Source of the DNA: Nocardioides marmoribigeumensis
GTDB lineage: Bacteria; Actinomycetota; Actinomycetes; Propionibacteriales; Nocardioidaceae
Reading direction: 5' to 3'
DNA: 64,000 bases
Assembly: GCF_031458325.1 (NCBI RefSeq)
Contig: NZ_JAVDYG010000001.1
Coordinates: 3,100,001 to 3,164,000, forward strand
The translations under genes were made by a program, and so were the position numbers. This document shows positions 5,073 to 33,782 of the stretch, piece after piece. Numbering within the stretch: position 1 is the first letter of the stretch; each line of letters starts with the position of its first letter. The notes beneath the pieces were generated by a model. It ran no database searches. It saw only the letters and a program-made list of their open reading frames with translations, and was not told where the DNA came from.

Positions 5073-6971
5073 GTGACCGATCGACGCCGGGCGGGTCCGG
5101 CTGCCGTCGTGGGGGCGCTCGGTGTCGTGTTCGGCGACATCGGGACCAGCCCGCTCTACGCGATGCGCACGATCCTGGGCGAGAGCGGACCCGTCACCCC
5201 GGACACCGTCTACGGCGTCACCTCGACGGTGATCTGGTCGCTGGTCGTGGTCGTCACCGTGCTCTACGTCGGCGTGCTGCTGCGCGAGGACAACCAGGGC
5301 GAGGGCGGCCTGCTCGCCCTGCTCGGGCTGCTGCGCCGCGCCGGCACCGGTGCGCGACTGGTCGCGGCCACCACGGTCGTCGCGATGGTCGGCGCGGCCA
5401 TGTTCATCGGTGACTCGGTGATCACCCCGGCCATCTCGGTGATCTCGGCCGCCGAGGGGCTGGAGACCGCCAGCCCCTCGCTCGCGGCGTGGGTCCTGCC
5501 GGTCGCGCTGACCATCCTCGGGGGAGTCTTCGTCCTGCAGCACCACGGCAGCGGCAAGATCGGCGCGGTCTACGGGCCGGTCATGGTCGCGTGGTTCGCC
5601 GTCCTCGCGCTCGGCGGCCTCGCCTCGCTGGTGCAGGACCCGGCCGCGGTGCAGGCCCTCTCGCCCCACCACGCCGTCCTCTACTTCGTGCACGACCCGC
5701 TCACCGCGTTCCTCTCGCTCGGTGCGGTCGTCCTGGCGGTCACCGGCGGCGAGGCGCTCTATGCCGACCTCGGCCACTTCGGGCGACCGGCCATCGCACG
5801 GGCCTGGTTGTTCGCCGTCCTGCCCGCCCTGCTGCTGGCCTACCTCGGGGAGGCCTCGGCCGTCGTACGCGACCCCAAGGCGGCCGGCGACCCGTTCTAC
5901 GCCGTCGTCCCCTCGTGGGGCACGATCCCGGTGCTCGTGCTGGCCACCCTGGCCACGGTCATCGCCTCGCAGGCGGTCATCGCCGGTGGGTTCACGGTCT
6001 TCCACCAGGCCGGCGGGCTCGGCCTGTTCCCCTTCCTCCGCACCCGTCACCCGTCGGCCACCGAGAGCGGGAGGATCTACGTCCCGGCGGTCAACTGGGC
6101 CCTCGCGGTGGCGGTGCTGGGCGTCGTCCTGCTGTTCCGCAGCAGCGAGCGCCTCGCCGCGGCGTACGGCGTGGCCGTCGCGTTCACGATGCTCACCACC
6201 ACCACGCTGTTCCTCGTGCTCGACCACGTGCGGGGCGAGCGCCACCCCGTGCGGCGCGCCGCGGCCTGGCTCGGCCTCGTCGTGATGGTCGTGTTCTGCG
6301 CAGCGGCCCTGCCCAAGATCCCCCAGGGCGGCTGGGCGCCCGTGCTGATCGGGGCCGTCGTGTTCGTGCTGCTGTGGACCTGGTGGAGCGGGCAGCGCCG
6401 GCTGGCGGCCGCCCGCGCCGCCGACGAGGTCTCCCCGCGCGACCTCCTCGCCGAGCTCCACCGCAGCGGCATCGAGCCCCACCGCACGCCCCACACGGCG
6501 GTCTTCCTCACCGAGGACGACGCCGTCGCGCCGTTCGCCCTGCGCACGATCACCGAGCAGGCGCAGGTCCTGCCCGAGCGGGTGCTGCTGCTCAGCTGGC
6601 AGGTCGAGGACACCCCGGGCTCCGAGGCCCACGTCAACCACGTCGAGCTCGACCCGTTCGAGGACTGCGAGGGCGTCACGGGCCTGTCGGTGACCCTCGG
6701 CTACCGCGAGCGGCTGTCGGTGCAGCACGTGCTCGAGTGCGCGATCGAGCAGCACCCCGAGGCGCTGCGCGGCGTCGACCCGGGCGAGGCGACCTACCTG
6801 GTCTCCGACTCGATCCCGCTGGTGGCCAAGGGGTGCGGCATGGCCGTCTGGCGCCAGCGGCTGTTCGTCCTCATGGCCAGGCTCTCCACCGACCGGGTCG
6901 ACCAGCTCGAGCTGCCGCGTGCGCGGACCATCGTGATCGGGCGGGAGTTCCAGCTCGCCGTGCGCAGCTGA
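5073..6971 (+). CDS. kup: KUP/HAK/KT-family potassium uptake protein
   Basis: A 632-residue protein with the KUP signature near the N-terminus (ALGVVFGDIGTSPLYAM). About twelve hydrophobic segments span roughly residues 10-430, followed by a cytosolic C-terminal domain. The family imports K+ with H+. GEALYADLGHFG and WFAVLALGG-type segments match conserved KUP helices. Start is a GTG. The gap to the upstream CinA-like gene is only 35 bases, so I do not see room for a c-di-AMP riboswitch, which controls kup in some actinobacteria. The gene ends at the dispersed hairpin element and converges on selD. Confidence 0.95.
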   Translation: MTDRRRAGPAAVVGALGVVFGDIGTSPLYAMRTILGESGPVTPDTVYGVTSTVIWSLVVVVTVLYVGVLLREDNQGEGGLLALLGLLRRAGTGARLVAATTVVAMVGAAMFIGDSVITPAISVISAAEGLETASPSLAAWVLPVALTILGGVFVLQHHGSGKIGAVYGPVMVAWFAVLALGGLASLVQDPAAVQALSPHHAVLYFVHDPLTAFLSLGAVVLAVTGGEALYADLGHFGRPAIARAWLFAVLPALLLAYLGEASAVVRDPKAAGDPFYAVVPSWGTIPVLVLATLATVIASQAVIAGGFTVFHQAGGLGLFPFLRTRHPSATESGRIYVPAVNWALAVAVLGVVLLFRSSERLAAAYGVAVAFTMLTTTTLFLVLDHVRGERHPVRRAAAWLGLVVMVVFCAAALPKIPQGGWAPVLIGAVVFVLLWTWWSGQRRLAAARAADEVSPRDLLAELHRSGIEPHRTPHTAVFLTEDDAVAPFALRTITEQAQVLPERVLLLSWQVEDTPGSEAHVNHVELDPFEDCEGVTGLSVTLGYRERLSVQHVLECAIEQHPEALRGVDPGEATYLVSDSIPLVAKGCGMAVWRQRLFVLMARLSTDRVDQLELPRARTIVIGREFQLAVRS

Positions 6972-6974
6972 CCG

Positions 6975-7034
6975 CGCGTCCCCACCCGCGCGTACTCCGA
7001 CGTACGCGTCCCCACCCGCGCGTACTCCGACGTA
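6975..7034. repeat. Two perfect tandem copies of a 30-bp unit
   Basis: Bases 6975-7004 and 7005-7034 are identical 30-bp units beginning CGCGTCCCCACCCGCG and ending in ACTCCGACGTA. Each unit contains the left arm of the adjoining hairpin, so the arm GCGTACTCCGACGTACGCG occurs at both 6990-7008 and 7020-7038. The single right arm can therefore pair with either. The duplication is not present at the second copy of the element near 33185. Confidence 0.95.
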
Positions 7035-7142
7035 CGCGTGGCTGATGTCCGATTTGTCCAGCGCGTACGTCGGAGTACGCGGGGCGGGGCGGCCGGGCGG
7101 GGCGGCCGGGCGGGGCGGGGCGGGGCGGGGCGGCCGGGCCGG
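7020..7142. repeat. Dispersed 61-bp hairpin element, copy 1, with G-rich tail
   Basis: Bases 7020-7038 (GCGTACTCCGACGTACGCG) and 7062-7080 are perfect 19-nt inverted repeats enclosing a 23-nt loop (7039-7061, containing TGATGTCCGATTTGTCC). From 7081 to 7140 follows a tract of GGGGC/GGCCGGGC runs. The whole 61 bp recurs without change at 33185-33245, again followed by such a tract. The element lies between the convergent ends of kup and selD. Read on the selD strand it is a C-rich stretch followed by a hairpin, which would fit a Rho-type or intrinsic 3'-end module. On the plus strand the tail can form G-quadruplexes. Its function is unknown. Confidence 0.9.
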
Positions 7143-8132
7143 TCAGCGGCGGACGGTGATCCGGCCGTCGCCCGCGACCACCTCGCCCACGACGGGGTGG
7201 CCGGGGAGCTCGCCGACGACGAGGAGACCGCCGGAGGTCTGGGCGTCGGCCAGCAGGACCAGCTCGTCCTCGTCGACGTCGGCGTCGAGGTGGGGGCGGA
7301 CCCAGTCGAGGTTGCGGCGGCTGCCGCCCGGCACGTAGCCGGCGGCGTACGACGAGCGCGCGCCCTCGACGTACGGCACGGCCGAGGCGTCGAGGACCGC
7401 CGAGACCCCGCTGGCGCGGCACAGCTTGAACAGGTGCCCGAGCAGGCCGAAGCCGGTCACGTCGGTGGCGCAGGTGTGGCCCGCGGCGAGCGCGGCGCGG
7501 GAGGCGTCGCGGTTGAGCGTGGTCATCACCTCGACCGCCTCGGGGAAGACCTCACCGGTCGCCTTGTGGCGGTTGTTGAGCACCCCGAGCCCCAGCGGCT
7601 TGGTCAGGGTGAGGGGCGTCCCGGGCACGGCGGTGTCGTTGCGCAGCAGGCGGTCGGGGTCGGCGAGACCGGTGACGGCCAGGCCGTACTTCGGCTCGGG
7701 GTCGTCGATGCTGTGGCCGCCGGCGAGGTGGCAGCCCGCCTGCGCCGCGACGGCAGCGCCACCGCGCAGCACCTCGGCGGCCAGCTCGAACGGCACGCGG
7801 TCGCGGGGCCAGGCGAGCAGGTTGACCGCGAGCAGAGGCTCACCGCCCATCGCGTAGACGTCGGAGATCGCGTTGGCCGCCGCGATCCGGCCCCAGTCGT
7901 AGGGGTCGTCGACGACGGGGGTGAAGAAGTCGGTGGTGAGCACGACCGCCCGGCCACCGTCGATGCGGACCACCGCGCCGTCGTCGCCGTTCTCGACGCC
8001 GACGAGCAGGTCGTCCGGGGTGGTCGGGGTGAGGCCGGAGAGCACCCGCTCGAGCTCCCCGGGCGGGACCTTGCAGGCGCAGCCGCCACCGGCGGCGAGC
8101 TGGGTGAGGCGGACGGGTGCGGAGACGGTCAC
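7143..8132 (-). CDS. selD: Selenide, water dikinase (selenophosphate synthetase), cysteine type
   Basis: SelD makes selenophosphate from selenide and ATP and supplies selenium to tRNA-Sec. The 329-residue protein has the N-terminal glycine-rich motif GGGCACK, with the catalytic residue at Cys18. The codon is TGC, so this SelD is not itself a selenoprotein. Conserved LTTDFFTPVVDDPYDWGRIAAANA-type motifs of the AIR-synthase/PurM fold follow, with GHSIDDPEPKYGLAV and NNRHKATGEVF further on. The start is a GTG, chosen because the family sequence begins there and the ATG a few bases upstream is out of frame. It belongs to the Sec locus that runs to 17484, although one unrelated gene separates it from the rest. 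Confidence 0.95.
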   Translation of the reverse strand: MTVSAPVRLTQLAAGGGCACKVPPGELERVLSGLTPTTPDDLLVGVENGDDGAVVRIDGGRAVVLTTDFFTPVVDDPYDWGRIAAANAISDVYAMGGEPLLAVNLLAWPRDRVPFELAAEVLRGGAAVAAQAGCHLAGGHSIDDPEPKYGLAVTGLADPDRLLRNDTAVPGTPLTLTKPLGLGVLNNRHKATGEVFPEAVEVMTTLNRDASRAALAAGHTCATDVTGFGLLGHLFKLCRASGVSAVLDASAVPYVEGARSSYAAGYVPGGSRRNLDWVRPHLDADVDEDELVLLADAQTSGGLLVVGELPGHPVVGEVVAGDGRITVRR

Positions 8133-33155: not shown

Positions 33156-33184
33156 GGGCTGATCCTGCCAGCCATCCCGGCCCC

Positions 33185-33296
33185 GCGTACTCCGACGTAC
33201 GCGTGGCTGATGTCCGATTTGTCCAGCGCGTACGTCGGAGTACGCGCGGCGGGGCGGTGCGCGCGGCGGGGCGGGGCGCGGCGGGGCGGGGCGGGC
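33185..33296. repeat. Dispersed 61-bp hairpin element, copy 2, with G-rich tail
   Basis: Bases 33185-33203 (GCGTACTCCGACGTACGCG) and 33227-33245 form the same perfect 19-bp stem, and the 23-nt loop is identical to the copy at 7020-7080. A GGCGGGG-rich tract (33246-33296) follows, up to the stop codon of the minus-strand gene at 33297. The left arm is single here, without the 30-bp duplication of copy 1. As in copy 1, the element lies directly 3' of a minus-strand gene in the same orientation. Confidence 0.92.
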
Positions 33297-33782
33297 TCAG
33301 TCGGCGAGGCGGGCCGGGAAGCCTCCCGTGGCGATCGGGCCCCAGCGGGTGGGGGTGACCCGGATCAGGGACTTGCCCTGGTCGACCATCGCCTGGCGGT
33401 ACTCCGCCCAGTCGGGGTGCTCGCCGGAGATGCAGCGGAAGTACTCCTCGAACGCGTCGAGCGCCGTGTCGTCCGGGGTGCCGTCGGAGACCGCGTCGAG
33501 CACCTCGGCGTCACCGTCGACCTGCACCCAGGCGTCGTCCCACTCGTCGGACAGCACGAGCACGGTCGCGCGCCCGGAGCGACGGGCGTTCCTGGTCTTG
33601 GCGCGCTCGGGGTAGGTCGCGATGACCAGCCGCCCGCCGGCGTCGACGCCCCCGCTGACGGGGGACAGCTGGGGGCTGCCGTCCTGGCGCTCGGTGACCA
33701 GGACGTAGTGGTGGCGGGTCCGGGCGAAGTCGAGCAGCTCGTCGAGCTCGACCCGATCGGTGGTGGCGATGGAGCGTGGCAT
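33297..33782 (-). CDS. PPOX-class F420-dependent oxidoreductase
   Basis: The 161-residue protein has the split-barrel flavin/F420-binding fold (HHYVLVTERQDGSPQLSPVSGGVDAGGRLVIATYPERAKTRNARRSG) characteristic of actinobacterial F420-dependent PPOX-family enzymes (related to Rv1155-type proteins). It probably reduces a small organic substrate with F420H2. It is divergently arranged with the BVMO gene, and the starts are about 18 bases apart. Its 3' side carries the dispersed hairpin element. Confidence 0.85.
   Translation of the reverse strand: MPRSIATTDRVELDELLDFARTRHHYVLVTERQDGSPQLSPVSGGVDAGGRLVIATYPERAKTRNARRSGRATVLVLSDEWDDAWVQVDGDAEVLDAVSDGTPDDTALDAFEEYFRCISGEHPDWAEYRQAMVDQGKSLIRVTPTRWGPIATGGFPARLAD

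Follow-up and report, generated by a model that had tools for sequence, protein, structure and literature searches.

The analysed window, a stretch of 64,000 nucleotides (64 kb) of the Nocardioides marmoribigeumensis genome, carries a hairpin element at the convergent kup/selD junction; gene ends here and below were taken from our own GC-frame gene caller, not from an annotation. A kup-like potassium transporter gene on the plus strand (5109–6971; its start is uncertain, with 5073 also possible, and its name comes from the preliminary description and from sequence reading) ends 47 bp before the element, and selD, the selenophosphate synthase gene on the minus strand (7143–8132), has its stop 61 bp after it. 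On direct sequence reading, the element (copy 1, 7019–7081, plus strand) is a 63-bp hairpin unit of 20-bp arms and a 23-nt loop. The left arm (7019–7038) is itself an imperfect palindrome, GCGTAC-TCCGAC-GTACGC, the loop (7039–7061) contains the direct repeat TGTCC-N4-TGTCC, and the right arm (7062–7081) is the left arm inverted. The perfect 19-bp stem and 23-nt loop given in the preliminary description are thus borne out (7020–7038 paired with 7062–7080), and a C-G pair between 7019 and 7081 extends the stem to 20 bp. Likewise, the second copy described there as identical over 61 bp, loop included, is identical over 63 bp, 7019–7081 being the same as 33184–33246. This copy 2 (plus strand) lies between two minus-strand genes, 50 bp past the stop of the gene at 33297–33782, and is followed by a G-rich tail (33247–33296, plus strand). 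Copy 1 has a similar G-rich tail (7082–7142, plus strand; GGGCGGGGC...) with an outward G4 motif, which, read on the minus strand, gives the selD transcript a C-rich 3' flank. On its other side, 6980–7009 and 7010–7039 form a 30-bp tandem duplication, so that an additional module of C-rich tail and left arm (6980–7009, plus strand) places the left arm beside copy 1 in a third copy. A selenocysteine tRNA gene (Rfam RF01852; 14348–14438, plus strand) near selD indicates that the window also carries selenocysteine machinery; it is the sole Rfam match in the window, and no known Rfam family matches the element above its gathering score.

Copies 1 and 2 are the intergenic inverted repeats with the longest arms within the window. 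The loop sequence has two matches compared with none in each of 100 shuffles, and the arm sequence has five compared with 0.2 expected; a chance repeat is ruled out on these grounds. Throughout the 4.44-Mb genome, which is assembled as one contig, there are 19 copies, 17 of them outside the window, and all are exactly 63 bp long without insertions or deletions. A covariance model built from the 19 copies regains 18 of them and adds none in the genome. Arms with up to one mismatch are found only in or directly beside doublets, with no solo arms elsewhere in the genome: extra arms at a 30-bp period adjoin copies L002, L004 (two arms) and L010, and one extra arm at about 18 bp adjoins L018.

To describe the conservation of the element, the 19 copies were compared column by column. 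Columns 3–7, 9–11 and 13–16 are invariant, as are the right-arm mirrors 48–51, 53–55 and 57–60; within columns 3–16 and 48–60, changes are confined to four columns, 8 and 12 in the left arm and the mirrors 56 and 52 in the right. Most of the arm changes break or weaken their stem pair. Compensatory changes, which had been proposed as a check, are not in excess, with 91.5% of positions paired compared with 91.3% in shuffles; RNA covariation was dropped for this reason. Given both results, the constraint on the arms seems to lie in their sequence, each arm being a palindrome GCGTAC-N6-GTACGC, and not in compensated pairing. The loop is more variable than the arms, although TGTCC-N4-TGTCC is kept in most copies. 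The earlier argument that loop conservation speaks against a simple terminator is therefore only partly right, since the three near-identical copies are recent and the loop is less well conserved than the arms across all 19.

Outside both arms lies a G-rich tail (about GGGCGGGG) that is strand-symmetric and conserved in register, so that each strand reads as a C-rich stretch, the hairpin and a G-rich stretch. Its consensus over the 38 tails is G (26/38), G (30/38), G (31/38) and C (25/38) at positions +1 to +4, after which it continues G-rich, with an overall composition of 60% G and 6% T. The GGGGC-rich tail reported earlier is accordingly seen in composition at all copies, and its C-rich counterpart on the other side, which is what makes it strand-symmetric, is an addition. 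The proposed G-quadruplex candidate has proved better founded than expected, as outward G4 motifs flank 10 of the 19 copies compared with 13 among 370 intergenic controls (P=4e-9). The left and right flanks of a copy are no more complementary than swapped flanks; an extra stem formed by the flanks was dropped for this reason, and the tails appear to be kept as composition and consensus, not as pairing partners. None of the 19 copies has a U-tract in its tails, and no terminator is predicted at any copy. The computed stability of the 63-nt hairpin ranges from about -29 to -49 kcal/mol, and it is stable on either strand.

With regard to genes, all 19 copies are intergenic: 10 lie between convergent genes, eight between codirectional genes just past the stop codon, and one (L006) between divergent genes. 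In the baseline, which comprises intergenic regions of 60–400 bp in 1.26 Mb of the genome, 38 regions are convergent, 281 are codirectional and 127 are divergent. Convergent positions are thus strongly enriched (10/19 compared with 8.5% expected, P=9e-7) and divergent ones depleted (P=0.015). From the stop codon to the element, the RNA is rich in C, with a median skew of 0.34 compared with 0.03 in controls (P=3e-8), and a switch from C to G from left to right across the element occurs in 19/19 copies. No second hairpin with a score of at least 10 is found in the flanks of the 19 sites, whereas 14 of 21 element-free convergent regions of 50–120 bp carry one; since many flanks are short, this absence is modest evidence. 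The surrounding genes are ordinary and of many kinds, and on sequence reading none beside the 19 copies is transposase-like. In two places, oppositely oriented copies enclose just one gene of roughly 1 kb, L005/L011 (1677931, 1679060) and L017/L012 (911303, 912526), the enclosed genes being one hypothetical gene and one probable GDSL-type lipase gene; by a hand estimate, about 0.1 such close opposite pairs would be expected by chance.

To reveal what unit is copied, the surroundings of the most similar copies were compared. L001, L002 and L003 are identical over 62–63 bp, whereas their 60-bp flanks are only 23–57% identical, about the level of the other copies (mean 38–39%). Identical copies in unrelated flanks indicate that it is the element that is copied, without its surroundings, and segmental duplication is ruled out by the same observation. 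At the convergent junction of a PAC2 gene and mshC (gene names from sequence reading), the gap here is 119 bp, that is, 56 + 63 bp. In relatives with this gene pair, it is mostly about 10–60 bp (range -4 to 93, leaving aside a value of 1202 at L306 that reflects a poor gene call), with 48 bp in the most similar relative. Only two relatives have an inverted repeat of at least 9 bp there, one of them long and unrelated. Such empty orthologous junctions imply that relatives need no hairpin at this place, although this empty-site-like comparison concerns one locus over a large divergence. No empty site can be read at kup-selD because these two genes do not keep their arrangement in the same-genus genomes that were inspected, and the fumarase and phosphate-transporter junctions are mostly not syntenic in relatives. 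No target-site duplication was seen around the copies, and no Y1/RAYT transposase (PF01797) was detected in this genome, while control genomes such as E. coli were positive. A transposon end or IS relic is ruled out by the lack of viral and plasmid copies, of a Y1 transposase and of transposase-like flanking genes. Collectively, the sequence comparisons suggest that the element moves as a discrete unit and has apparently spread recently.

Outside this genome, no match to a permissive doublet pattern occurs in 84,980 GTDB species of bacteria and archaea or in viral contigs, and no copies were found in plasmids. A search of 58 relatives gives a single 29-bp arm match only, and the covariance model finds four weak look-alikes among 295 family genomes (G012, G034, G197 and G261), which were dropped as family members owing to weak scores and different arms. 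The preliminary description had held that the idea of a dispersed or REP-like element would fail if there were only two copies, if copies lay at random inside genes or if relatives had none. With 19 copies, all of them extragenic and forming a discrete unit, that idea is upheld and the first two outcomes did not occur; the third did, and it points to a species-specific family, not an artefact. This specificity partly mirrors the lack of a close relative, as the same-genus genomes are distant (SelD 74–78% identical).

Other hairpin families were observed in the genus. A second dispersed composite family, GTTTCACTAGGTACCTAGTGA ... TGGCACTTCCCGAGCGAAGTTTCGCTCGGGAAGTGCCA ... TCACTAGGTACCTAGTGAAAC, with palindromic outer arms and mostly at convergent gene ends, is common to this genome (L165 at about 7008–7093; genome positions 1670589 and 1810808) and the same-genus species G002 (103634, 110280, 178562 and 328069). 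G002 also has a family CGGTTTCCCACGGTATGCAG ... CTGGCACTCCCCATGG ... CTGCATACCGTGGGAAACCG, mostly past gene ends (stretches L145–L164, e.g., 88001, 107314, 121970, 163435, 180726, 266140 and 339144), the inner core of which resembles that of the GTTTCACTAGGTACCTAGTGA composite family. A family-wide pattern, GACGTACG..CGTACGTC, was dropped because most genomes have one or few matches, many of them plausibly coding; among its matches, G003 of the same genus stood out as an obvious separate hairpin family, with four copies of a GACGTACGGACGGTTCC hairpin (L251–L254), all intergenic. Moreover, Nocardioides deserti and N. oceani share a nearly identical hairpin, CGAACGCCCGGCCGGG ... CCCGGCCGGGCGTTCG, located at gene ends (L068, 3675–3709; L071, 2945–2980). 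Species-typical dispersed hairpins may be general in Nocardioidaceae. A broader proposal, which we regard as speculative and doubtful, is that the family harbors a RAYT-independent, REPIN-like class in which each species has its own long-armed doublets with C-rich/G-rich (G4-prone) tails, spread by an enzyme and serving as interchangeable two-way transcript ends; the gene-end families of G003 (GACGTACGGACGGTTCC) and G002 (CGGTTTCCCACGGTATGCAG) would be examples.

The best explanation, to which we assign a probability of roughly 0.6, is that the element is a species-specific REPIN-like repeat without a RAYT, located at gene 3' ends and acting as a bidirectional transcript-end module. It would have been spread in trans by a hairpin-recognizing enzyme that is now absent or unrecognized. 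The transcript of either strand would carry, at its 3' end, a very stable hairpin preceded by a C-rich, G-poor stretch, on which Rho could load and end transcription, and the hairpin could then block 3' exonucleases; at the least, the element would be tolerated solely in places where it can serve as such a module. Rho is encoded in this genome, so that both sequence features of a Rho-dependent module, a C-rich/G-poor upstream RNA and a Rho gene, are present, while the U-rich tract that follows the hairpin of an intrinsic terminator is absent. Of the possible Rho or 3'-end module proposed in the preliminary description, the position, the composition and the missing U-tract all fit; the role itself is one that we infer. 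Judging from these features, the element probably works as a barrier at 3' ends in both directions, perhaps together with Rho.

A purely selfish or relic miniature element without a role is unlikely. Placement at 3' ends would then result from the removal of insertions in genes and promoters, and the placement bias alone could indeed also arise if harmful insertions are purged, as with REPs of other bacteria, which are placed alike (PMC3733652). The absence of the element from all relatives searched and its occupation of a junction that is empty elsewhere agree with this account. However, convergent regions are enriched even against codirectional ones (10:8 compared with 38:281 in the baseline), though both offer space near stops, and the C-rich sense flanks and the lack of a second hairpin at 19/19 sites likewise speak against this account.

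Somewhat less probable again is a protein-binding element acting at the DNA level, in which each palindromic arm (CGTAC-Y-CCG-V-CGTACG) would serve as a dimer site and the two arms together would be read as a duplex by a regulator or nucleoid protein. The restriction of changes in the 38 inner arms to motif positions 8 and 12 and mirrors 56 and 52, together with the tendency of these changes to unpair the stem, would be explained by a constraint on the arm sequence and not on arm-arm pairing. Nevertheless, the copies lie past stop codons and between convergent genes, not at promoters, and arms do not occur away from doublets. Their chromosomal positions are uniform (P=0.94), by which a segregation-type site is ruled out. 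Finally, this genome has many strong hairpins past stop codons, but ordinary intrinsic terminators resembling one another by chance are very improbable and, as a complete explanation, are refuted by the sequence identity across 19 unrelated loci, with a nearly identical 63 bp of fixed length, loop included, and neither a U-tract nor a terminator call.

REP-like repeats have been studied mainly in Proteobacteria, together with the RAYT transposase. Here, a clean doublet family without a transposase occurs in an actinobacterium, clearly favors convergent gene ends and has apparently spread recently; the strand-symmetric G-rich tail outside both arms is new. The element would allow us to ask what moves such repeats without a RAYT, and whether high-GC genomes, in which U-tract terminators are rare, recruit repeats as two-way transcript ends.

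Among known systems, the BIMEs of E. coli are arrays of units that form stable hairpins near 3' ends and protect the 3' ends of mRNA. The element resembles them in its likely mode of working and in the 30-bp tandem modules at three of its copies; in contrast, it has no sequence relation to them. As discussed in PMC8355165, hairpin terminators without a U-trail are reported from Streptomyces and from a mycobacterium, and they share with the element a strong GC-rich hairpin past the stop codon; there, however, each gene has an unrelated sequence, whereas here one sequence is repeated. Like the CGTC/GTAG-tagged REPs (PMC3733652), the element consists of short palindromes that lie in convergent as well as same-direction intergenic regions, for the most part past the ends of genes, and the CGTC REPs likewise have no dedicated transposase; Actinobacteria are not mentioned by that name in the text of that paper. 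In contrast to these REPs, which have a tag next to a short stem, the element has 20-bp arms and, by the tag definition of PMC3733652, no GTAG/CGTC tag at the arm ends, CGTC occurring only inside the stem on direct reading of the arm. Because of this missing tag and the lack of a RAYT in the genome, we do not file the element as a REP or REPIN. It also differs from REPINs in showing no significant compensatory change, in having G-rich tails on both sides and in its 19 copies, below the usual REP abundance of tens to hundreds. Nevertheless, it is a repeated extragenic palindrome (19/19 intergenic) of inverted units and a spacer, capable of forming a hairpin in 19/19 copies, and the missing orphan arms and the identical copies in unrelated flanks mark the doublet as the dispersing unit. 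REPINs likewise consist of two inverted palindromic arms of ~16–18 bp around a less conserved spacer of fixed length, are extragenic and species-specific, and spread as doublets (PMC3116915). Collectively, the element looks like a REPIN and may work like one.
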